Shown: in pieces, positions 3,057 through 62,353 of the stretch
How the letters are laid out: each line of letters begins with the position of its first letter
How positions within the stretch are numbered: the first letter of the stretch is position 1
NCBI GenBank assembly: GCA_016285245.1
Contig: JAEEQH010000012.1
Coordinates: 1-64,000 of the forward strand
DNA length: 64,000 nucleotides
Source of the DNA: Prevotella sp.
GTDB lineage: Bacteria; Bacteroidota; Bacteroidia; Bacteroidales; Bacteroidaceae
Direction: 5' to 3'
Notes under the pieces: generated by a model
Databases searched by the model: none
Told to the model about the DNA's origin: nothing
What the model saw: only the letters and a program-made list of their open reading frames with translations
Program-made: the position numbers and the translations under genes

Positions 3057-3977
3057 ATGAGGAAATTATTCTGGATTCTGGCGACGCTGCTGCTCCTGGC
3101 GAGTTGCGGACGGTCGTACGAAGAGAAACGGAGGATATCGCGTGCAGAGCAGCGCCGACTGTGGCGCGAGGACTCGGCGGCGCTGAAGGTGGCGGTGATG
3201 CCCACGCTCGATTGTCTGCCGCTGTACGTGGCCAAGGAGCACGGTTTCTTCGAGAAGCAGGGCGTTGACGTCAGGCTGAAGCGCTTCACCGCCCAGATGG
3301 ACTGCGACACCGCCGTGGCCCGCGGCCGCGTGGAGGGACTGGTGAGTGACTTGGTGCGCACGGAGCGGCTGCAGCAGCAGGGCACGCCGCTGCGCTACAT
3401 GTCTGCCACGGACGCCTACTGGCAGCTGGTGACGAACCGTCAGGCACGCATCCGCGAGCTGAAGCAGCTCGACGACAAGATGGTGGCCATGACGCGCTAC
3501 TCGGCCACGGACCTGCTGACTTCGCTGGCTGTCGACAGCGCGAAGCTGAAGACGGAACGCGTGTTCCGCATACAGGTGAACGACGTGAACATCCGTCTCA
3601 GGATGCTCCAGGGCAACGAGCTCGACGCGATGTTGCTGACGGAGCCGCAGGCCGTCCAGGCACGGCTGCAGAAGCACCGCGTGCTGCTGGACAGCCGCCG
3701 TCTGGACATGAGGCTCGGCGTGCTGGCCTTCAGCGAGAACGCCCTGAAGGACAAGAAGCGCCAGCAGCAGCTCGATAAGTTCATGAAGGCCTACCGCCAG
3801 GCGTGCGACTCGCTGGCACAGCGGGGACTGGCAGCCTACCGCGACGTGGCCTCGAAGGCCTGCGACGTCACCACCGCCGCTCTCGACTCGCTGGCGAGGA
3901 GCTACAAGCCCAGCCGTGCCGCAGAGCCCCGGACAGCGGACGTGGAGCGGGCACAGAAATGGCTGAAGGAAAATTGA
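3057..3977 (+). CDS. ABC transporter substrate-binding lipoprotein (NMT1/THI5-like)
   Basis: Lipoprotein signal MRKLFWILATLLLLASCG; LKVAVMPTLDCLPLYVAKEHGFFEKQGVDVRL typical of NMT1/SsuA-like periplasmic proteins. Confidence 0.75.
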   Translation: MRKLFWILATLLLLASCGRSYEEKRRISRAEQRRLWREDSAALKVAVMPTLDCLPLYVAKEHGFFEKQGVDVRLKRFTAQMDCDTAVARGRVEGLVSDLVRTERLQQQGTPLRYMSATDAYWQLVTNRQARIRELKQLDDKMVAMTRYSATDLLTSLAVDSAKLKTERVFRIQVNDVNIRLRMLQGNELDAMLLTEPQAVQARLQKHRVLLDSRRLDMRLGVLAFSENALKDKKRQQQLDKFMKAYRQACDSLAQRGLAAYRDVASKACDVTTAALDSLARSYKPSRAAEPRTADVERAQKWLKEN

Positions 3978-4015
3978 AAAATTAAAAAATTGAAGAATTG
4001 AAGTTATAAAAGGCG

Positions 4016-6124
4016 ATGGTAGCTAAGAACGAGCAGTTGGAGACGGTGATGCGCCACGTCGGCGACGGACATCTGGGCCAGGCCATAGGCGGTCTGGAGA
4101 ACTACCTGCTGGCGTATAGCCACCCGCAGGAGATGGAACAGCTGATGCGCATCAAGGAGGACTACCGACTGATGACCGACTACTGGCAGCAGGGCTACCA
4201 GGACCCGCAGCGCGAGACGGTCTACCGACGGCTGCTGCAGCGCGTCCACCAGCTGGCCACACGACTCGCCGTGAGCCATGCCATCAAGAACACGTCGTTC
4301 ATGCTCTCCACCTACAAGCGCGCCAGGGCCGTGCGACAGGACTGGACGCTGACGTCGCTGCGCCGCGACCTGGAGGACTTCGTGGCTAACCAGGCGCTGC
4401 TCGAGCTGAACGCCGACGACGCCCAGGAGCAGCAGCTCTACGAGCGCCAGCAGGCGCTGCGTTGCGACCTCTTCGACTACATCTGGACGTCGCGCGTGTG
4501 GAGCGACAGCCTCGCCGACGCCTTCGTCGACCTCCTGACAACACCTACCGTCGACACCATGGACCAGCAGCTCGTGGTCAGCGCGATGACGCTGTCGCTG
4601 ATGAACGCCTTCGATTATAATAAGGTACGCGCATTGGTTGCCGTCTACCAGCGCAGCGCCGACGAGCAAGTGCGACAGCGCGCACTCGTGGGGTGGGTGC
4701 TGGCCGTCGATTCGACGATGATTCCGCTATACCCCGAGATGGCAGACTTGCTGCGCCAGCTGACGGCCGACGACGACTGCCGCCGCGAGCTGAAGGAGCT
4801 CCAGATGCAGCTGCTCTACTGTCTGAAGACCGACGAGGACAGCCGCATCATCAACCAGGAGGTGATACCCGAACTGATGAAGAACAACGACCAGTTCCGC
4901 TTCACGCGCAATGGCATCGAGGAGGTGGAGGAAGACCCCATGGAGGACATCCTGCACCCTGAGGCTGCCGAGCAGCGCATGGAGCAGATTGAGAAGACCA
5001 TGCGTCGGATGCTGGATATGCAGCGCGCTGGGTCGGACATCTTCTTCGGCGGCTTCGCACAGATGAAGCGCTTCCCCTTCTTTAGCGACACCTGCAATTG
5101 GTTCATGCCCTTCTACGACAAGCATCCCGCCATACGCCGTGCGCTGAAGGACGAACGCCAGCGGCGCATCATCCTCGGACTGATGGGTCGCACACCCTTC
5201 TGCAACAGCGACGCCTACTCGTTCGCCCTTGGATTCCAGATGACCATTGACCATCTGCCGCAGAACATCCAGGAGATGCTCGGACGCGGCGAACTGTCGA
5301 TAATGGGCGACATGGTGGACGACGCTACGGCCGCCCAGCCAGCATACATCCGGCGCCGATACCTGCAGGACCTCTACCGTTTCTGCCGCCTGTTCCCCGC
5401 ACGCAGCACCTTCGACCACCCCTTCGACGACAGCGACGGCGGCAGCCGTCTCTTCTTCCTGCTGCAGCCGGCCTTCCGCGATACCGCCCTCGCCGACGAT
5501 GTGGAGTACTACACCATCAGCGCCACCCTGTTGCAACTAATGGACGGCGTCGACCGTCAGCTGGCCGACTGCTACCGCGAGGTGCTGGCACGCGACCCGC
5601 GCAACGAGCGTGCCCTCAGAGGGCTGGCACGGCTGCTGTTCAAGGAGAACGATTACCAGCGGACGCTCGACGTCTACGAACAGCTGCTCGAGCTGCGTCC
5701 CGACCATCATAACTACCTGCTGAACAAGGCCGTCTGTCTGGGACGGCTGGAGCGTGGCGACGAGGCGCTGAAGATTCTCTACAAGATGGACTACGAGGAC
5801 GGCGACAACCCCAACGTGAAGCGCGTCCTGGCATGGACACTCGTGGGCTGCGGCAAGACGGAGCAGGCGAGGAAGATATACTCGCAGATGCTCGAGGCAC
5901 AGCAGCCTGAGGGCGACGACCTCCTGAACTACGGCCTATGCCAATGGATAGCCGGCGATGTCGTCGGCGCCGTAGGACTCTTCCGCCAGTATGCCCAGAC
6001 ACGTGGCGACAAGGGCTTCAACGCTGAGGCAGTATTCTGCCGCGAGGAAGCCGCGCTACTCAAACGTCACGGTATCAGCGACGTCGAAGTACGCATGATG
6101 ATTGATACAATTCACAATGCATAA
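4016..6124 (+). CDS. Tetratricopeptide repeat protein (702 aa)
   Basis: Single long ORF; C-terminal TPR pattern ARDPRNERALRGLARLLFKENDYQRTLDVYEQLLELRPDHHNYLLNKAVCLGRL. Confidence 0.75.
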   Translation: MVAKNEQLETVMRHVGDGHLGQAIGGLENYLLAYSHPQEMEQLMRIKEDYRLMTDYWQQGYQDPQRETVYRRLLQRVHQLATRLAVSHAIKNTSFMLSTYKRARAVRQDWTLTSLRRDLEDFVANQALLELNADDAQEQQLYERQQALRCDLFDYIWTSRVWSDSLADAFVDLLTTPTVDTMDQQLVVSAMTLSLMNAFDYNKVRALVAVYQRSADEQVRQRALVGWVLAVDSTMIPLYPEMADLLRQLTADDDCRRELKELQMQLLYCLKTDEDSRIINQEVIPELMKNNDQFRFTRNGIEEVEEDPMEDILHPEAAEQRMEQIEKTMRRMLDMQRAGSDIFFGGFAQMKRFPFFSDTCNWFMPFYDKHPAIRRALKDERQRRIILGLMGRTPFCNSDAYSFALGFQMTIDHLPQNIQEMLGRGELSIMGDMVDDATAAQPAYIRRRYLQDLYRFCRLFPARSTFDHPFDDSDGGSRLFFLLQPAFRDTALADDVEYYTISATLLQLMDGVDRQLADCYREVLARDPRNERALRGLARLLFKENDYQRTLDVYEQLLELRPDHHNYLLNKAVCLGRLERGDEALKILYKMDYEDGDNPNVKRVLAWTLVGCGKTEQARKIYSQMLEAQQPEGDDLLNYGLCQWIAGDVVGAVGLFRQYAQTRGDKGFNAEAVFCREEAALLKRHGISDVEVRMMIDTIHNA

Positions 6125-6281
6125 TGCTTAATGCATAATGCTTAATGCTTAATGCATAATGCTTAATGCATAATGCTTAATGCATAATGCTTAATGCTTA
6201 ATGCATAATGCTTAATGCATAATGCTTAATGCATAATGCTTAATGCATAATGCACAATTCACAATTCACAATGGACAATTA
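6108..6281. repeat. Heptanucleotide tandem array (ATAATGC/TTAATGC)n flanked by (ACAATTC)n
   Basis: From 6121 about 19 consecutive 7-mers of form [A/T]TAATGC, then acaattc acaattc acaatgg acaatta in the same 7-bp phase. Confidence 0.95.
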
Positions 6282-7562
6282 GAGGGTGAAGGCGAGGAGG
6301 TGGGCAAACCAGCCGCGGAACTTCTGCCAGGAGGTGCGCTTCTGCTTCCACCACTCGGGGGTCATCAGCTCGCTCTTTTGTGTGTCGCGCAGGAACATCG
6401 TGTCGAGTTCGGCGGTGGTCTCGCGGTTCACGATGATGGCATTGTCCTCGAAGTCGAAGCGCAGGCTACGCGAGTTGAGGTTTGCCGAGCCGATGGTACA
6501 GAAACGCCCGTCGACCATCATGATCTTGGAATGGTGGAACCCCGGCTGGTACACCCAGACGGTGGCGCCACGCTTCATCAGCTGATGGGCGTTATAGAAA
6601 ACACAGTCGGGCGTCAGGGGGATGTCGCTCTTCTGCGAGATCATGATGTTCAGTTTCACACCACGCTTGATGGCCCTCTTGAACGCCCGCTTCAAGGCCG
6701 GTGAGAGGGTGAAGTAGGGATTGATGATGTTGATGGAGTCGCGGGCGGCGTCGATGGCGGCGAGGTAGAAGCGGCGGATGGCATCGTTGCGCCCCAGGAG
6801 GTGGCCGTCGTCGACATAGACGGCGCCGGGCTCGCGGTTCAGGATGCCCACCGTCGTTGCGCCACCGTCGCGACCGCGGAAGTAGGCCGGGTCGGTGAGC
6901 TGCTCGCCGGTGACGTCACGCCATATCTCGCGGAAGATGAGCTGCAGGTCGTTCACCGCGCTGCCCTCCAGCCGACAATGCAAGTCGCGCCACTCGCCCA
7001 CCTGCTCCGTACCTTTTATATAATAGTCGGCAACGTTCATGCCGCCTGTGTAGCCAATGTGACCGTCGATGACCACGATCTTGCGGTGGTCGCGCGGCCA
7101 GATGTGGTTCAACCACGGGAAGCGGATGGGGTCGTACTCGTGGATGTCGATGCTGTCGTTGCGCAGGGCGGTGATGTGGTGCTTCTTCAGAGGCTGGTTG
7201 TTCGAGTCGTTGCCGAAGCCGTCGAACAGCGCGCGCACCTCCACTCCCTCGCGGCGCTTCTCGCGCAGCAGGTCGAAGAGCAGCGACGCTATGGAGTCGT
7301 TGCGGAAGTTGAAGTACTCCAGATGGATGCTGTGGCGTGCCTGGCGGATGGTCTCGAACAGGTCGTCGAACTTCGCCTGTCCGTTCATCAGCACGCGAAC
7401 GCTGTTGTCATCGGTGAAGCGCACGCCGTAGTCCGCCATCTGCCGGCGGATAAGCGTGTCGCTGGTCTGAGCCCCTACAGGGCTAGATGATATATGAAGA
7501 ATGAAAAATAATAAACCTATGCGGAGTAAAAGGCTGCTATGTCTCGTCGTTGCTCTTGTCAC
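6279..7562 (-). CDS. Phospholipase D family protein / cardiolipin synthase-like, exported
   Basis: Two HKD motifs: DHRKIVVIDGHIGYTGGMNV and HHSKIMMVDGRFCTIGSANLNSRS; signal peptide LLFFILHISSSPVGAQ; GTG start. Confidence 0.85.
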   Translation of the reverse strand: MTRATTRHSSLLLRIGLLFFILHISSSPVGAQTSDTLIRRQMADYGVRFTDDNSVRVLMNGQAKFDDLFETIRQARHSIHLEYFNFRNDSIASLLFDLLREKRREGVEVRALFDGFGNDSNNQPLKKHHITALRNDSIDIHEYDPIRFPWLNHIWPRDHRKIVVIDGHIGYTGGMNVADYYIKGTEQVGEWRDLHCRLEGSAVNDLQLIFREIWRDVTGEQLTDPAYFRGRDGGATTVGILNREPGAVYVDDGHLLGRNDAIRRFYLAAIDAARDSINIINPYFTLSPALKRAFKRAIKRGVKLNIMISQKSDIPLTPDCVFYNAHQLMKRGATVWVYQPGFHHSKIMMVDGRFCTIGSANLNSRSLRFDFEDNAIIVNRETTAELDTMFLRDTQKSELMTPEWWKQKRTSWQKFRGWFAHLLAFTL

Positions 7563-7632
7563 CTCTTAATTCTAATCTCTTATCTTAACTTATCTCTTAT
7601 CTATTATCTATTATCTATTATCTCTTATTTTA
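7563..7632. repeat. Short-period AT-rich repeat (TCTATTA / TCTTATC) between two minus-strand genes
   Basis: tctcttatcttaacttatctcttatctattatctattatctattatctcttatttta; overlaps the stop codon of the upstream gene. Confidence 0.85.
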
Positions 7633-10600
7633 CCCCTTGTGGTGCTTCAGGCGGTACTCCAGCGGCGACAGTCCGAACTTCTCCTTGAAGACGTTGATGA
7701 AGTTCTCGGCAGTCATGAAACCGATGTTCACAGCCAGCTCACTCATATTGATGTTCGTACGCTTCAGCAGGATGCACGCGTGCTTCAGACGGATGTCGCG
7801 AACGAGCTCCGTGGGCGTCTTGCCCGTGAGGTTGCGCACCTTGTGGAAGAACGGCACACGGCCCATGCCCATCGCCGAAGCCATCTCCTCAAGACTGATC
7901 TGACCACGGCTCATGTTCTGGAGAACGTATTGCTCGATGCTCATCATCAGGCGCTGGTCGACGGCACTCGTCATCGAGTAGTCGCTGCCCATCTCCTCGG
8001 CACTCTCCTCGGCCATGGCGGTCGTTATCTGATCCACCAGCTCGCTGTTGGTGCTCACGGCGGGGGCGTTGCCCTTCTTGATGCGCGTCTCAACCATCTG
8101 CATCTCGTCGTCGCCACCCTGGTCGCCGACAGGTGCAAGACCCGTCATGTCGATGCTCTCCGTGGACGTTGTCATACTCGAGTTGAGGCTCTCCAGACGG
8201 CGTGTCTCGGCACCCTCGATGAGGTTCGTGTCAATCTCGACAATGCCCAGGCCCAGCAGCTTGTTGAAGCGCATGACGGCCTCCTGGAGGTTGAACGGCT
8301 TGGCCAGGTAGTCGTCGGCAGAGAGCGTGATGTCCATATCCTTCATGTCGCGTGCCGTCAGCGCACCTTCGGTCATCAGGACGAACTTCATCTTCGCGCG
8401 TGAGGCGTCGAGCTTCAGCTGGTTGCACAGCTGGCTGCCCCTCATGCCCGGCATATCCTCCTTACAGACAATGATGTCGGCCTTCATCGTCTCCAGGTCC
8501 TCGGCGGCCTTGTGGATGTTGTTGTAGACGTGGAAGTCGTAGACGTTGATGAGACGCTCGTTGACGTAGCGCAGGAATTCCTCGTTGTCGTCGATGAAGA
8601 TGACAACGAACTTGCCCGTCGGCGAGTCGGCGGTGCGACGTGTGCTCACCTCCGTCGTCAGCGTGTTCGTGTTCGACTCAATCATCTGCATCTCGCCCTT
8701 CGTGTTCAGCTCGAAGCGGTTCTGTACGCTCTGCTTGGCCTTCACCTCGGGGTTCTCAAGCGACGACTGCATATCGCTGACACGCGTGATGACCTGAAGC
8801 ATCTGCGAGTGGAGGGCGTTCAGCTGCTCGCGCTCCTCGAGCGACTTCTCCGTCTGCGACAGGTTACTAATGATTGACGTCATGCGGATCATCGGCTGGC
8901 GGAGATCCTCGCTGGCAGCCTTGATCTCCTCGCGCTGGATCTTCAGCTGGTCGATGACAGCGTTCTTGCGGGCACGCATCTCGCGGATTTGACGGATGCC
9001 GATACGCCACATGTAAAGGATGATGATGAACGTCACGGCATAGGCCACGATCATCCACCATGACAGCAGCCAGTGGGGGGCGATGGTAATCTCGATGACG
9101 CGCTCCTGGTTACTCACGGAGCCGTCGGCGCTGACGGCCTTCACATGGAGCTTGTACGTACCGCTCTTCAGGTTGTGGAACGTCACGCCGTGCTTCAGCG
9201 CGTCGCCAGTCTTCCAGTCGACGTCGAGACCCTCCATCCAGTACTTGAACTGCAGGCGCTCGCTCTGGTTGTAGTTGCCAGCGGCAAACTTGATGGTGAT
9301 GGAGTTCTGGTGGTGCTTCAGCTCCAGATGGTTGCACTCGTTCAGGGCCTGTGTCAGCACAACATTGCCGTCGTAGTCGTGGCCAATCATGATCTCCTCC
9401 TCGCCAAGGAACAGCTGTGTCAGCATGACGCGGGGCAGCGACTTGCTGTCCTCGTCAAGGTCTTGACTCGTCCAGTTGATGCCGTGCAGGCCGCCAAACT
9501 GTACGTTGCCGCTCTTCTCCGTGAAGATGGAGCCAATGTTGAACTCGTTGCTCTGAAGACCGTCGCGCGTGTCGTAGTTATACAGACCGTAGGCAAAGCT
9601 GCTCTCCTCGTGGTCGCGCTGTACCACGACGCGGCTGATGCCGTTGCTCGTTGTTATCCAGATGTTATGCTTGTTGTCCTCGGTGATGCCGCAGATGTTG
9701 TTGTTGCACAGTCCCTGCTTCTCCGTGAGGTAGTGCAGGTCATCGGTAGCCAGGTTCAGAATGTTCACACCCTCGCGCGTACCTATCCATAATAAGTCGC
9801 GGGAGTCCTGGAACACCTGAGTGATGTAGTTGTTCGTGAACTTCTTCAGCGACGTCGTGTTGCCTATCAGGTGACGCATCTCCGACGTCGAGAGGTTCAT
9901 CAGGATCAGTCCCTCGCTGGTGCCCACGAACAGGGTGTTGCCCTTCGAGTAGTAGAGCGACGTGATGCTGTTCGTCGTCAGCTTACGGTTCTCGCGCGTG
10001 TAAGTGGAGAAGGTGTTCATCCTCGGGTTGAACACCTGCAGGCCGCCGTTGGTGGCTATCCACAAGTTGCCCGTCTTGTCGTAGCAGAGGTCGTTGATGT
10101 GGTCGTCAATCAGCGTGTTCGCATTGTTGCGGTCGTGACTGTAGATGGTTGCCACACCGTCCTTGATGCGTGTCAGACCGTTGTTCTTGGAGCCTACCCA
10201 AAGGCTGCCGTCGGGGGTGGTGGCCATGCACGAGACTTTCACGCTGGCCAGTGTCCCGCTATAGTCGAGAAGACCCTGGTTGCTCGTGCCGTACCACGTG
10301 CGTCCCGAGGCGTCCTGCGTGATGGCGGTGATGTCGCCAATAAGCTTTGATTCAAAACGGTAGATATTCTCGCCATGATAGGCGACGCCCGATTTCTCCG
10401 TGCCTACCCACAGCAAGTCTGTGTCGTCGATATAGATGCTCTGGATGCGGACAATCTCGTTCTTCCATTGACCCTCGTTGATGTTGTGCGGCTGGATGGA
10501 CTCCATTTCGTGCGTGTTCATGTTCATACGCACCAGACCGTGCTGGTCAGTACCTATCCAGATGTTGCCTTCGCGGTCGGCACCCATGCCGTGGATGGAG

Positions 10601-11433: not shown

Positions 11434-12381
11434 TCAGACCATGCACGAGTAGTGGTCGACGACACCCAGCAGATGACGCTCGTGGTCGGTGACCAGTACG
11501 GAGTGGATCTTGTATTTGTTCATGATTCTCTGTATCTCGGATATTTTCGTCTCAAGGGTCACAGCCTTCGGGTCGCGCGTCATGATGTCGCTGACGGTGT
11601 GGTCGAAGAACTGCGCCTGCCAACGCTCCATGGCGCGGCGGATGTCGCCGTCGGTGATGAGGCCGGCTACCTGGTCGCCCTCCATGGCAATGCCCAGTCC
11701 CAGCTTGCCCTTGCTGACAAGGATGATGGCCTCGCCAAGCTTCATCTCGGGACTGATGACCGGCATATCGACGGTGCGCATCACATCTTGGGCGGTGGTC
11801 AGCAACCGCTTGCCCAACTCGCCGCCAGGGTGGAACTGTGCGAAGTCCTGAGGCTTGAAGTGGCGCTTCTTGATGAGGGCCACAGCCAGAGCGTCGCCCA
11901 TGACCATCTGCGCCGTGGCGCTACTCGTTGGCGCCAGGTTCAGAGGGTCGGCCTCGTGGCTCACGCTGACGTTCAGGTGGCAGTTGGCGTACTTGGCCAG
12001 CAGCGAACCGGCGTTGCCGCTCATGGCGATGATGGGAATCTCCATCTGAAGCACCATCGGGATGAAGCGCAGCAGTTCGTCCGTCTGGCCGCTGTTCGAG
12101 ATGGCCAGTACCACGTCGTCGCTCGTCATCACGCCAAGATCGCCGTGGAAGACGTCCAGCGGGTTGATGAAGAACGACGGCGTGCCCGTCGACGACAGCG
12201 TCGCCGCAATCTTTGCGCCCACATGGCCGCTCTTGCCCACGCCGGTGACGATAATCTTGCCATGGCAGCGGTACATCAGCTCGACGGCGCGCTCAAACTG
12301 CTCGTCCATCTTCGGAATCAGCTCCAGCAGCGCCTCAGCCTCGTCTTTGATGCATTGTATGCCGTAATCTATTGCGTTCAC
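11434..12381 (-). CDS. kdsD: KpsF/GutQ family arabinose-5-phosphate isomerase (SIS + CBS domains)
   Basis: KIIVTGVGKSGHVGAKIAATLSSTGTPSFFINPLDVFHGDLG; CBS pair at C terminus; GTG start. Confidence 0.9.
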   Translation of the reverse strand: MNAIDYGIQCIKDEAEALLELIPKMDEQFERAVELMYRCHGKIIVTGVGKSGHVGAKIAATLSSTGTPSFFINPLDVFHGDLGVMTSDDVVLAISNSGQTDELLRFIPMVLQMEIPIIAMSGNAGSLLAKYANCHLNVSVSHEADPLNLAPTSSATAQMVMGDALAVALIKKRHFKPQDFAQFHPGGELGKRLLTTAQDVMRTVDMPVISPEMKLGEAIILVSKGKLGLGIAMEGDQVAGLITDGDIRRAMERWQAQFFDHTVSDIMTRDPKAVTLETKISEIQRIMNKYKIHSVLVTDHERHLLGVVDHYSCMV

Positions 12382-12425
12382 TTCTCAATATCTCAATATT
12401 TCAATCTCTCAATCTATCAATTTCT
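12382..12425. repeat. 8-bp-period repeat between kdsA and kdsD
   Basis: tctcaata tctcaata tttcaatc tctcaatc tatcaatt tctcaac; includes the kdsA stop codon. Confidence 0.85.
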
Positions 12426-13167
12426 CAACCAGCCCCTCCAACTTCTCCAGCTCCAGCATATTAGCGGCGTCAGAGAGACCCTGATCCGGGGTGGGGTGTA
12501 CCTCGAAGAAATAGCCGGTGGCGCCGAAAGCCTTAGCTGCAAGCGCCATCTGAGGCACGTAGCGGCGGTCACCGCCAGTCTTGCCGTCGCTGCCGCCGGG
12601 GCGCTGTACGGAGTGCGTGCAGTCCATGATGACCGTAGGCACCAGTTCCAGCATATCGGGGATGTTGCGGAAGTCCACCACAAGGTTGTTGTAGCCCATC
12701 ATGTTGCCGCGCTCCGTCAGCCATACGTCCTGAGCACCGGCGTCGCGGGCTTTCTCGACGGGGTAGCGCATATCGCGACCACTGAGGAACTGCGCCTTCT
12801 TCACGTTCACCGTGCGCCCCGTCTTTGCGGCAGCCACGAGAAGGTCTGTCTGGCGACAGAGGAAGGCTGGAATCTGCAGCACGTCACACACCTCGCCGGC
12901 GGGGGCTGCCTGCCAAGTCTCGTGGATGTCGGTGAGCACACGGAGACCGTACTTCGACTTCACGTCGGCAAGCATCTGCAGACCATGCTCCAACCCCGGG
13001 CCGCGGAACGAGCGGATGCTCGTGCGGTTGGCTTTGTCGAACGATGCCTTGAAGATGATGTCCGTGCCCAGCACGCTGTTGATGCGCACCAGTTCATGCG
13101 CCACCGTGTCCAGCAATTCGGCTGATTCGATGACGCAGGGACCTGCTATAATGGTCGTCTTTTTCAT
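12409..13167 (-). CDS. kdsA: 3-deoxy-8-phosphooctulonate synthase
   Basis: IIAGPCVIESAELL; FKASFDKANRTSIRSFRGPGLEHGLQML; DCTHSVQRPGG. Confidence 0.95.
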   Translation of the reverse strand: MKKTTIIAGPCVIESAELLDTVAHELVRINSVLGTDIIFKASFDKANRTSIRSFRGPGLEHGLQMLADVKSKYGLRVLTDIHETWQAAPAGEVCDVLQIPAFLCRQTDLLVAAAKTGRTVNVKKAQFLSGRDMRYPVEKARDAGAQDVWLTERGNMMGYNNLVVDFRNIPDMLELVPTVIMDCTHSVQRPGGSDGKTGGDRRYVPQMALAAKAFGATGYFFEVHPTPDQGLSDAANMLELEKLEGLVEKLID

Positions 13168-19627: not shown

Positions 19628-19767
19628 AAGGGCATCGCCCTGGATGAGAAGTGATAAGTGAGAAGTGATAAATACATGAATTGCTTAAATGGTGTCAGTC
19701 GCCCATTTCTGCTGATAGGTTTATCGCTTATCACTTATCACTTCTCGTTTATCCCCTGTGAGGCGCA
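19628..19767 (+). repeat. Signal-peptide inverted-repeat cassette A
   Basis: Arms 19646-19672 GAGAAGTGATAAGTGAGAAGTGATAAA and 19720-19746 TTTATCGCTTATCACTTATCACTTCTC (25/27 complementary); GC tips gggcatcgccct and cccctgtgaggcgcag. Confidence 0.9.
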
Positions 19768-20920: not shown

Positions 20921-21056
20921 TTTGGCTTAAATGATAGTTGAAAAATGAAGAACGATAGTTTTATTACCACTACACATCGAGTCAGACGCTCCTTGATTCT
21001 GATTGTTTTGTCATTTATCATTTATCAATTATCAATTAGCCCTGCAAGGGCACAGA
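20921..21056 (+). repeat. Signal-peptide inverted-repeat cassette B
   Basis: 5' arm gcttaaatgatagttgaaaaatgaag; 3' arm tttgtcatttatcatttatcaattatcaattagc; tip gccctgcaagggcacag. Confidence 0.8.
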
Positions 21057-38840: not shown

Positions 38841-38866
38841 TCATGATTATTCGCATATTTATGCAT

Positions 38867-39032
38867 AAAAAGGTGACCTTTAGCCGGCTAAAGGTCACCT
38901 TTACGATTCTAAAGACCACCTTTTCGCCGCTAAAGGTCACCTTTTCGCCGCTAAAGGTCACCTTTTCGCCGCTAAAGGTCACCTTTTCGCCGCTAAAGAC
39001 CACCTTTTCACGGCTAAAGGTCACCTTTTTCC
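38867..39032. repeat. 21-bp tandem array, about 8 units, AAAGGTCACCTTTTCGCCGCT
   Basis: aaaggtcaccttttcgccgct repeated with minor variants; each unit centred on the near-palindrome AAAGGTCACCTTT. Confidence 0.95.
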
Positions 39033-39094
39033 AGGGGAAGGTGAACAATAATTGGAAGAAAATGCTTATCTTTGCGACCAAATTATAAAACAGC

Positions 39095-39538
39095 ATGGAA
39101 GAGATAAGAGTCTACCACACCATCTGGAGAAAAGAACTGTTTTGCGGCATCGGTTGCCTTGCTGTTACGGCCCTTATACCCTTTGTGGGAACTTTTACCC
39201 CCAGGGATGGTGGGGTTATGCTGGTCCTGTGCTTGTGGGGACTCTACTTGTTGTCCACGGTGTTCCGTGAGCGTTGGCAGCACCGGCCGTATCTGACCAT
39301 CACCGACGAGAGCATCATCATGCAACGCAAGGACTATCCAGAGAATGTCATACGCTTTGACGAGGTCAAGTCGTTCGAACGTGAGACGTCACGCTTTCTG
39401 GGGCATACCTCATTCACGGGCTTCATCATCGTCCACTTGAAGAACGGGCATGGATTCGTCAGCATTATCGGTGCCAGCGACCTCACCATGAAGTCACAGC
39501 AGCTATACGACCTGCTGAATGAACGGCTGAAAAAATAA
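39095..39538 (+). CDS. STM3941-like membrane protein (PH-like domain)
   Basis: Two TM helices then YLTITDESIIMQRKDYPENVIRFDEVKSFER; tatctttgcgacc promoter motif upstream. Confidence 0.55.
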   Translation: MEEIRVYHTIWRKELFCGIGCLAVTALIPFVGTFTPRDGGVMLVLCLWGLYLLSTVFRERWQHRPYLTITDESIIMQRKDYPENVIRFDEVKSFERETSRFLGHTSFTGFIIVHLKNGHGFVSIIGASDLTMKSQQLYDLLNERLKK

Positions 39539-54060: not shown

Positions 54061-57027
<2,967 letters not shown>

Positions 57028-59780: not shown

Positions 59781-61313
59781 ATGTTCGAAAATCAACCTAA
59801 AGGACTCTATGCGTTGGCTTTGGCCAACACCGGTGAGCGCTTCGGATACTACACGATGCTCGCCGTCTTCGCACTCTTCCTGCGTGCTAACTATGGTCTA
59901 GATGCTGGCTGGGCTGGCGAGATCTACAGCGACTTCCTGATGCTCGTCTACTTCCTGCCTATTGTTGGCGGCTGGCTGGCTGATAAGTTCGGCTTTGGTC
60001 GCATGGTCACTATTGGCATCCTCATCATGTTTGCCGGCTACCTGCTGCTTTCCGTACCTCTAGGCGGTGACACGCTGGCACTCGTCGTGATGTTAGCCGC
60101 ACTGGTGCTCATCGGACTGGGCACGGGACTCTTCAAGGGTAACCTCCAGGTGATGGTGGGCGACCTCTACAACGACCCGAAATATGCGGGACAGCGCGAC
60201 TCGGGCTTTTCCATCTTCTACATGGCCATCAACATCGGTGCACTCTTTGCTCCGACGGCAGCCGTGAAGATCATGGAGTGGGCACAGCAGAACCTCGGCA
60301 CGAGCGTGAACGACTCCTACCATTTCGCCTTTGCCGTGGCCTGTGCCTCGCTCATCCTCTCCATCGCTATCTACTACATTTTCCGCGGCACTTTCCGCCA
60401 CGTGGAGGGCGGCAAGAAAACGGCGGACAGCGCTTCTGCCGCTGTCGAGGAGTTGTCGAAGGAAGAAACCAAGGCCCGCATCGTGGCACTTTGCCTTGTC
60501 TTCGCTGTAGTCATCTTCTTCTGGATGGCGTTCCATCAGAATGGCCTGTCGTTGACATATTTCGCCGACGAGTTCACCGCTAAGACTTCGGAGGGCGTCG
60601 AGGGCATGGCCTTCAACGTGTGGAACCTCGTGGCAATCATCTTCATTGTCTACGCCCTGTTCTCGCTGTTCCAGTCGAAGACGGGCAAGGGTAAGGCTAT
60701 TTCTGCTGTCGTCATCTGTATAGCACTGGCATTCCTTTTCTTGCAGTACGATAGAACCTCTGGCGAGATTGTTGCTGTCTCGGCACCTATCTTCCAGCAG
60801 TTCAATCCTTTCTATGTGGTTGCCTTGACACCTGTCTCGCTGGCCATTTTCGGCTCACTGTCTGCTAAGGGTAAGGAGCCTTCAGCTCCGCGAAAGATTG
60901 CCTATGGTATGGTGGTGGCCGGACTGGCCTACTGCCTGATGGCTGTCGCCTCCTTCGGACTGCCTATGCCTCAGACAACAACCGGTGCCGACGGCGAGCC
61001 CGTTGCCGTCCATGTGGCAGACGTCACGCCGCAGCTCCTTATCTATACCTATCTTATATTGACGTTCGCCGAGCTGCTGCTCTCTCCGATGGGCATCTCG
61101 TTTGTCTCGAAGGTGGCACCTCCGAAGTACAAGGGCCTGATGATGGGTGGTTGGTTCGTGGCTACCGCCATCGGCAACAAACTTGTGGGCGTTGGCGGTT
61201 ATCTCTGGGGTAACATCCCCCTCTGGGCCGTTTGGAGCGTGTTCATCGCTCTCTGCATCATTTCGGCCGTCTTCATGTTCTCTATCATGAAGCGTCTGGA
61301 GAAAGTCTGTTAG
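59781..61313 (+). CDS. POT family peptide MFS transporter
   Basis: YALALANTGERFGYYTMLAVFALFLRANYGL; GWLADKFGFGRMVTIG; GTGLFKGNLQVMVGDLYNDPKYAGQRDSGFSIFYMAINIGALFAP. Confidence 0.93.
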   Translation: MFENQPKGLYALALANTGERFGYYTMLAVFALFLRANYGLDAGWAGEIYSDFLMLVYFLPIVGGWLADKFGFGRMVTIGILIMFAGYLLLSVPLGGDTLALVVMLAALVLIGLGTGLFKGNLQVMVGDLYNDPKYAGQRDSGFSIFYMAINIGALFAPTAAVKIMEWAQQNLGTSVNDSYHFAFAVACASLILSIAIYYIFRGTFRHVEGGKKTADSASAAVEELSKEETKARIVALCLVFAVVIFFWMAFHQNGLSLTYFADEFTAKTSEGVEGMAFNVWNLVAIIFIVYALFSLFQSKTGKGKAISAVVICIALAFLFLQYDRTSGEIVAVSAPIFQQFNPFYVVALTPVSLAIFGSLSAKGKEPSAPRKIAYGMVVAGLAYCLMAVASFGLPMPQTTTGADGEPVAVHVADVTPQLLIYTYLILTFAELLLSPMGISFVSKVAPPKYKGLMMGGWFVATAIGNKLVGVGGYLWGNIPLWAVWSVFIALCIISAVFMFSIMKRLEKVC

Positions 61314-61446
61314 CGGGCTTCGCCCTAAATGAAAACTGAAAAATGGTAAATGATAAATTGCTGCCGCCTTGTGGAATTCATGTGATGGTGATAGTATTAT
61401 CATTTGTCATTTTTCATTTATCATTTAACCCCGTAGGAGCACAGAC
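61311..61446 (+). repeat. Signal-peptide inverted-repeat cassette D
   Basis: Arms 61326-61357 TAAATGAAAACTGAAAAATGGTAAATGATAAA and 61396-61427 ATTATCATTTGTCATTTTTCATTTATCATTTA (27/32 complementary); tips gcgggcttcgccct and ccccgtaggagcacag. Confidence 0.9.
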
Positions 61447-62353
61447 CTTAACGTTTGTTGAACTGAACTGCGAGAATCTCTTCGACACACAACACGACAG
61501 CCTCAAGCAGGACAATGAGTACCTGCCTGAGGCTGTCCGTCGTTGGACGAAGAAACGCTACTGGCGCAAGCTGAACAACATTGGGCAAGAACTGCTCTCC
61601 GTCTGTGACGACGGTGTGCCTGACATCGTTGCCTTGTGTGAGGTCGAGAACGATTCAGTCATGCGCGATCTCATAAAGAGATCCTTGTTGCGAGGTGCGG
61701 GGTATCAATATGTGATGACGCAGTCGCCCGATCTTCGCGGTATCGACGTTGCGTTGCTCTACCAGCCGCTGACCTTTGCCCTCGATACGGCTTTCGCCCT
61801 TCGTGTGACGCCTGTCGGCGATATGCGTCCTACGCGTGACATCCTCTATGCACGGGGACGTGTCATCAGCGGCGACACCCTCCATGTCTATGTCGTCCAT
61901 GCTCCCAGCCGCTATGGTGGCGAGCGTTACAGCCGTCCGTTCCGTCAGGCGGTCGCTACGCGCCTCTGCCAGTCGCTCGACTCGCTAAGACAACTGTCGC
62001 CGGATGCTCATGTGATCGTTGCTGGCGACTTCAACGACGCGGCCGACAGTCCGGCCTTGCGCCAATTGACGGAAAACGGCCTGCTACATCTCACTAGTCA
62101 TGCCCGTGGTGAGAACGGCGTCCGCGGCACCTACCGCTATCAAGGAGAGTGGGGGAGCCTGGATCATGTCCTTGGCTCCCCCACCATCAGCAGTATGGTT
62201 GATACTGTGTTTATTCATTCACCTCGTTTCCTACTCGAAGAGGAAGCACTCTACGGTGGACTGCGCCCCCGGAGAACATACAACGGAATACGCTATCAGC
62301 CTGGCTATAGCGACCACTTGCCACTGGTCGTCAGGCTACGTCTCCAGCCATAG
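61343..62353 (+). CDS. Exported endonuclease/exonuclease/phosphatase family protein
   Basis: TFVELNCENLFDTQHDSLKQDNEYLPEAVRRWTKKRYWRKLNNIGQELL; ALCEVENDSVMRDL; HVIVAGDFNDAADSPAL; YSDHLPLVVRL. Confidence 0.88.
   Translation: MVNDKLLPPCGIHVMVIVLSFVIFHLSFNPVGAQTLTFVELNCENLFDTQHDSLKQDNEYLPEAVRRWTKKRYWRKLNNIGQELLSVCDDGVPDIVALCEVENDSVMRDLIKRSLLRGAGYQYVMTQSPDLRGIDVALLYQPLTFALDTAFALRVTPVGDMRPTRDILYARGRVISGDTLHVYVVHAPSRYGGERYSRPFRQAVATRLCQSLDSLRQLSPDAHVIVAGDFNDAADSPALRQLTENGLLHLTSHARGENGVRGTYRYQGEWGSLDHVLGSPTISSMVDTVFIHSPRFLLEEEALYGGLRPRRTYNGIRYQPGYSDHLPLVVRLRLQP

Follow-up and report, generated by a model that had tools for sequence, protein, structure and literature searches.

Heptad-built palindromic repeats as a probable source of predicted signal peptides in a Prevotella lineage

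The leader of a predicted exported protein in Prevotella sp. is encoded by a palindromic cassette whose two arms are arrays of heptanucleotide units. We consider it probable, at roughly three chances in four, that such cassettes belong to a lineage-specific class of interspersed, heptad-built palindromes, similar to REPs and to the palindromic elements of Rickettsia (RPEs), and that some of the copies have been domesticated as signal peptides. The cassette was found in the window, i.e., the whole stretch of 64,000 nucleotides that was analyzed, taken from a genome of 2.77 Mb in 60 contigs. It was compared with other regions of its own genome and with related genomes, using one genome per species.

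Cassettes within the window

The layout of the cassette and of the other features of the window is given in Table 1. A sequence-only reading had claimed complementary heptad arms 38 nt apart, with the start codon in the 5' arm, the h-region in the 3' arm and the c-region NPVGAQ behind it, and coordinates and translation agree with it on every one of these points. The pairing score of the two arms is 23, against a maximum of 21 among 384 mismatched pairings between orthologs, and local alignment pairs cores of 27 nt around a 40-nt loop. GC-rich tips had been described at both arms; in this gene, only the 5' one forms a perfect hairpin. The gene has its nearest named relatives in rumen Prevotella, and the start M-[IV/M]-N-D-K is seen again in three orthologs (L073, L098 and L122). 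A basic n-region, a hydrophobic h-region and an AxA-Q end are all present, here (MVNDK..LSFVIFHLSF NPVGA-Q) and in other genes, as read by eye from the translations. The Q follows the rule described for the cleavage site of Bacteroidetes signal peptides (PMC5837995). The leaders thus look like predicted Sec/SPI signal peptides of this phylum, and they are probably functional.

Table 1. Features of the reported cassette and of related elements in the window
Feature	Position	Strand	Details
Upstream POT-type transporter gene	59781..61313	+	From ORF listing and translation; own stop TAG at 61311-61313
5' terminal GC hairpin	61315..61325	+	GGGC-TTC-GCCC (GGGCTTCGCCC), perfect, abutting the array
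5' heptad arm	61326..61357	+	TAAATGAAAACTGAAAAATGGTAAATGATAAA, TGATAAA-type, start codon within
Start codon	61343..61345	+	ATG, M-V-N-D-K
Spacer	61358..61395	+	38 nt, most of the n-region coding
3' heptad arm	61396..61427	+	TTTATCA-type, hydrophobic core LSFVIFHLSF
c-region	61427..61444	+	N-P-V-G-A-Q, AxA-Q cleavage site (Bacteroidetes Q-rule)
Reported gene	61343..62353	+	ORF MVNDK...VIVLSFVIFHLSFNPVGAQ; endonuclease/exonuclease/phosphatase-family, Exo_endo_phos_3 (PF19580), predicted exported
Second complete cassette	19630..19753	+	Hairpin GGGCATCGCCC, 5' array, start 19676, 3' array, c-region IPCEAQ
Third cassette	20927..21041	+	5' arm weaker; start 20945, 3' arm 21000-21041
Heptad-encoded h-region	7488..7515	-	ILHISSSPVGAQ
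Palindromic element in uvrA	55066..55161	-	TATGATTAC..GTAATCATA family, in frame within uvrA (54061-57027)

The RNA of 61311-61446 is predicted to fold at -40.4 kcal/mol (z = -3.64; none of 200 shuffles equals it), with the start codon (61343) inside the predicted stem. The window had no match to Rfam families at gathering thresholds. Such a stable fold, together with the start codons that lie within the 5' arm in several cassettes and the co-variation of arms in orthologs (see below), would fit a translation-control hairpin, i.e., arms under selection for an RNA structure in which the start codon of exported proteins is hidden. However, hairpins as good or better are found within the ORFs of cytosolic enzymes and between genes, many of the signal-peptide genes carry the 3' arm alone, and most orthologs of the reported gene do not have the structure at all, and we regard this explanation as quite unlikely. 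Since hairpins occur in these other contexts too, hiding of the start codon need not be their purpose.

The same layout had been proposed for four other genes of the window. Paired arms can be made out clearly at 19.63-19.75 kb and less so at 20.93-21.04 kb, where the c-region SPARAQ comes with the hairpin GCCCTGCAAGGGC. The gene at 7.49-7.63 kb has just its 3' arm from the TTTATCA-type family, and the region upstream of the h-region (7582-7634) is an array of another unit. The heptad scan was negative for the gene at 59.02 kb. The idea that the array ends upstream translation does not apply to the reported locus, because the POT gene stops at its own TAG, but it does apply to three orthologs (L068, L074 and L077), in which the array supplies the stop of the upstream gene.

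Signal-peptide DNA and turnover of the cassette

Heptad-encoded predicted signal peptides were found in at least 22 exported-protein genes, a number that is a count and not an unbiased enrichment because the genes were located via their arrays. A codon-shuffle null had been set beforehand, and in each of the 22 genes, including the reported one, 0/2000 codon-resampled versions reach the period-7 score. Elsewhere in the genome, TTA is used at 2.0% of the Leu positions and TCA at 7.1% of the Ser positions, yet both are the standard choice in the heptad h-regions. Hydrophobic segments are of course expected in signal peptides, and DNA could look repetitive merely from h-regions rich in F, I, L and S. 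This convergence in composition is hardly credible, given that the resampled controls fail in 22/22 genes, that rare codons are preferred and that the arrays reach beyond coding DNA into the inverted 5' arms; the codon resampling led us to reject it. This supports a repeat element, rather than codon choice, as the origin of the signal-peptide DNA.

The cassette had also been called portable. Two genes (L047 and L061) have in common a 133-nt block, comprising the upstream array, the start codon and the signal peptide, with 97.7% DNA identity, although neither their flanks nor their mature proteins are related (blastp E = 7.7). They are located on short contigs (C29 and C48), and as both resemble parts of polysaccharide-utilization loci, the block could have been exchanged within such loci. 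Among 64 distinct orthologs of the reported gene, 9 have a TGATAAA cassette, 11 have other hairpins and 44 have none. Their tree implies about 16 changes in the presence or the unit of the cassette, and for presence/absence at least 10 of them are forced by well-supported branches. Sister pairs of orthologs differ in whether they carry the cassette, as do the close sisters L068 and L092, which differ by the presence and absence, respectively, of a block of ~117 nt. Portability stands in this respect, and the comparisons support a cassette that appears to move or turn over as a block. The alternative is that the reported cassette is ancestral and was simply inherited. The TGATAAA type is indeed clustered on the ortholog tree (5 changes vs 8.6 when shuffled) and is common to four related species (L122, L130, L133 and L142). 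Even so, well-supported branches require at least 4 changes for this type alone, besides those in presence/absence, and the two sisters mentioned above point the same way. We consider simple inheritance unlikely. Six orthologs (L079, L081, L084, L085, L092 and L096) start with MILSLLLSGFLTFVELN, do not have AxA-Q and are found directly after a different upstream gene.

The 5' arms are not restricted to the reported locus, and arms tend to match within a copy. A complementary array was found within 200 nt, and above the 95th percentile of mismatched pairings, for 17/44 arrays of the own genome (2.2 expected); a 99th-percentile cut is insensitive here because related arrays elsewhere pair too. 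The fit of the arms is better within than between copies, both in the congener G167 (p = 0.003) and in the own genome (p = 0.009). In 11/64 orthologs, the arms of one gene pair with a score above the 99th percentile of the pairings between genes, and in four of the orthologs, L107 (AAATATA / TTTTTTATTTCTTATT), L099, L077 and L069, both arms are made of other units. Perfect GC hairpins flush with TNANTGA arrays were present at 4/15 own and 7/16 Prevotella loci, compared to a background of 1.2-2.0%. A hairpin at the 3' tip was only weakly above the codon null at the ends of signal peptides (p = 0.03), and we discarded it as a strong feature. A tandem duplication of the whole hairpin-plus-array half-element is found in the ortholog L133, in the last ~170 nt before the mature part; the two versions (GGGCAGAGCCC-TAAATGAG.. 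and GGCCTTCGGCC-TAAATGAT..) have different hairpin stems.

Palindromes and period-7 arrays across the genome

A sister family of palindromes (TATGATTAC..GTAATCATA) gave 53 arm matches in the own genome, versus 0 in the reversed control, and includes 12+ copies of the element dispersed over non-homologous sites. Copies are in frame within mfd, uvrA, dnaE, dnaG, mutY, recQ, tRNA nucleotidyltransferase, pseudouridine synthase, a LytTR regulator and glycosidases (the names of loci other than uvrA and the reported gene were read from translations). In about 18 ORFs, they are read in one common frame as a hydrophilic linker peptide (..ERYDYSQG..NHTSQFS..). The copies located at N-termini (L038, L043, L066 twice, L160 and L048) are read in a shifted frame, the 3' arm giving VIISLIFHF, and in most of them the ATG of TATGATTA is the start codon. 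The own mfd (L167) and that of G167 (L263) carry the palindrome at one common Mfd loop, which could be either an old insertion that both have kept or a loop that is prone to insertion. The insertion loops of mfd in congeners (about 29 loci compared, with the nearest homologue at 73% identity) are empty or hold other short inserts. The exact core GTATGATTAC..GTAATCATAC is absent, by exact match, from 114 genomes of other genera of the family. Among plasmids and phages, no carrier of the palindrome was found except for a 30-nt match on two Rhodococcus plasmids, which we took as chance. Hybrid cassettes (L066) suggest common descent of this family and the reported type, whose core, GGTAAATGATAAA, is different. 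As similar palindromes occur between genes and in frame inside cytosolic enzymes, the secretion-signal module that had been proposed is too narrow a view; the cassette is not dedicated to secretion, which is one use that survives selection.

Period-7 arrays are frequent well beyond these elements. The own genome was sampled as a systematic 464 kb plus the stretches around matches. The 464 kb contained 38 tandem arrays of period 7, 9 of period 8 and two to three of periods 9 and 16, with 0 in shuffles; a further 13 and 6 arrays had periods 14 and 15, the former being a harmonic. With a looser cut, 50 period-7 arrays were detected in the own genome. After N-runs were subtracted by hand, their density per 100 kb was 10.8 in the own genome, ~4.8 in congeners and ~0.8 in other genera of the family. 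The ortholog neighbourhoods in named Prevotellaceae had 28 period-7 arrays compared to 1-6 for periods 5, 6 and 8-12. Period 8 is a second non-random period, and weaker arrays of it (AATTGAAG/CTCAATCT) are found just 5' of gene starts (window 12379-12429 and 3966-4007; L148:6241-6292). The heptad units are many and different, and arrays occur both between genes and in frame inside genes. An array of 177 nt of AATGCTT/AATGCAT heptads lies between convergent genes (window 6105-6281), with similar ones at L153:2169-2244 and L163:18202-18299; these are possibly a third unit family, exclusively intergenic. TTTCTCA arrays were seen directly 5' of TTTGTACCTTTGCA-like sequences (L049:3423-3457, L056:2453-2480, L057:9786-9820, L057:5110-5137 and L064:9075-9102), which resemble the Bacteroidetes -7 promoter element TAnnTTTG. 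A different repeat, of 7 residues (21 nt), makes up a short ORF (MIIRIFMHKKVTFSRLKVTFTILKTTFSPLKVTFSPLK..) at window 38843-39088, upstream of the gene at 39095.

Each unit has one fixed amino-acid cycle in all frames, because a period of 7 nt passes through every codon phase. The arithmetic advanced by the sequence-only reading is right: (TTTATCA)n reads FIIYHLS in all three frames, and (TGATAAA)n reads two stops followed by MINDK. Likewise, TCGTTCC gives SFLVPRS and GGAACGA gives GTRNEER, each in all three frames, and the TGATAAA and GAACTGA units contain stops. These per-unit cycles would be the reason that, judging from the array list, TTTATCA is found mainly at signal peptides and GGAACGA/TCGTTCC in the interior of enzymes.

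A mobile element may not be needed at all. Slippage would create the arrays, and template switching at quasi-palindromes would copy an array as its matched inverted partner, the signal peptides being simply places where TTTATCA arrays survive. This would explain the many unrelated unit sequences and the arms that co-vary although units differ between orthologs (L107, L099 and L069), and no transposase is consistently linked. However, the conserved core and defined arm length at many non-homologous sites (the matches counted above), the about four heptads plus core that make up most G167 copies, and the 133-nt block common to unrelated genes all speak against it, as slippage spreads no core. 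Since the shared core and shared blocks are left unexplained, slippage and template switching are insufficient alone, and we give them an appreciable but clearly minor chance; a mixed history is likely.

Mechanism, related systems and significance

We favor a class of short interspersed palindromes, multiplied in the Prevotella lineage, of which the reported cassette would be one copy. The element consists of two inverted arms, with some 3-5 degenerate 7-nt units per arm and a short spacer between them, and in the reported sub-class small GC hairpins close the arms. Elements may land or form between or inside genes and survive where read-through is possible, the sequence of the unit deciding where a copy is tolerated: GGAACGA/TCGTTCC, free of stops on both strands, inside enzymes, and the hydrophobic TTTATCA as a signal peptide. 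At the 5' end of an exported-protein or lipoprotein gene, the start codon comes from the 5' arm and the hydrophobic core from the 3' arm, and selection would then supply a basic n-region together with an AxA-Q or lipobox terminus. Copies presumably move by DNA copying, either transposition or template switching. Neither a transposase nor a fixed terminus or a target-site duplication could be identified, and the comparison of one genome per species revealed no polymorphic insertion. The own genome has a single, possibly domesticated RAYT/Y1-like protein (L147:1303-2538, contig C50), with a DHVHL motif, internal GSGENAAGVHG repeats and a PF01797 score below the cut-off. Two PF01797 matches were found in G167 and none in G115, another heptad-rich congener.

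Several known repeats are comparable. RPEs (Ogata et al. 2000, 2002, reviewed in PMC10969869) are palindromes of ~100-150 bp located in frame in unrelated protein genes. By their description, they share with the Prevotella elements the genome-wide repetition of palindromes, the in-frame position in unrelated genes and a recurrent peptide. The Prevotella arms, in contrast, are degenerate heptad arrays that vary between copies, no CGTC end was seen, one family is read in two frames (as linker, or as start plus signal peptide), and the phylum is different. REPs, too, are found within genes for replication and repair, and their termini can provide the stop codons of flanking ORFs (PMC3733652), features that, together with small GC end hairpins and inverted doublets, liken our elements to the REP/REPIN-RAYT system; unlike it, they have a heptad array between hairpin and center and no linked RAYT. 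The GTAG/CGTC tag was absent from the foot of the terminal hairpins inspected, which lie next to TAANTGA/ATTTAG; GTAG is confined to the interior of some 3' hairpins. For the enterobacterial repeat units RU-1/2/3 (ERIC-like; Delihas 2007), a predicted signal peptide that derives from a repeat has been described (PMC2759123). A single case or a few there compare with at least 22 genes here, in which start codon and h-region come from inverted arms. The heptameric tandem repeats of cyanobacteria and Xanthomonas (PMC4692102) are likewise interspersed heptanucleotide arrays, but they are G-rich and mostly intergenic, with no inverted-arm pairing and none described as signal peptides. Finally, PARCELs (PMC2996958) are protein-coding palindromic DNA that spreads among membrane proteins, and they differ in being tandem amphipathic repeats of 25 residues and not heptad arms or leaders. 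The open-access literature searched contains no description of heptad palindromes in Prevotella. Nor does it mention an architecture of heptads, arms that co-vary or the recurrent use of such copies as start plus signal peptide, and these features are to that extent new.

The usual view is that signal peptides originate through point mutations or the fusion of genes. In this dominant genus of gut and rumen, a family of repeats seems to have been their source again and again, at base-level resolution, and the origin of secretion signals becomes directly testable. From one element, the reading frame would decide between a soluble linker and a membrane-targeting leader. The co-variation of the arms, in spite of their differing units, raises the question of how palindromes are copied. 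The findings as a whole also warn that the N-termini of Prevotella proteins, like their annotated start codons and inserted loops, may derive from repeats. A stronger version, in which the palindromes are an active, self-spreading system whose copies act as interchangeable secretion modules (stop, start and signal peptide in ~130 nt, in any frame), is doubtful; if true, it would constantly supply new exported proteins, as well as altered regulation by leaders and 5' hairpins.
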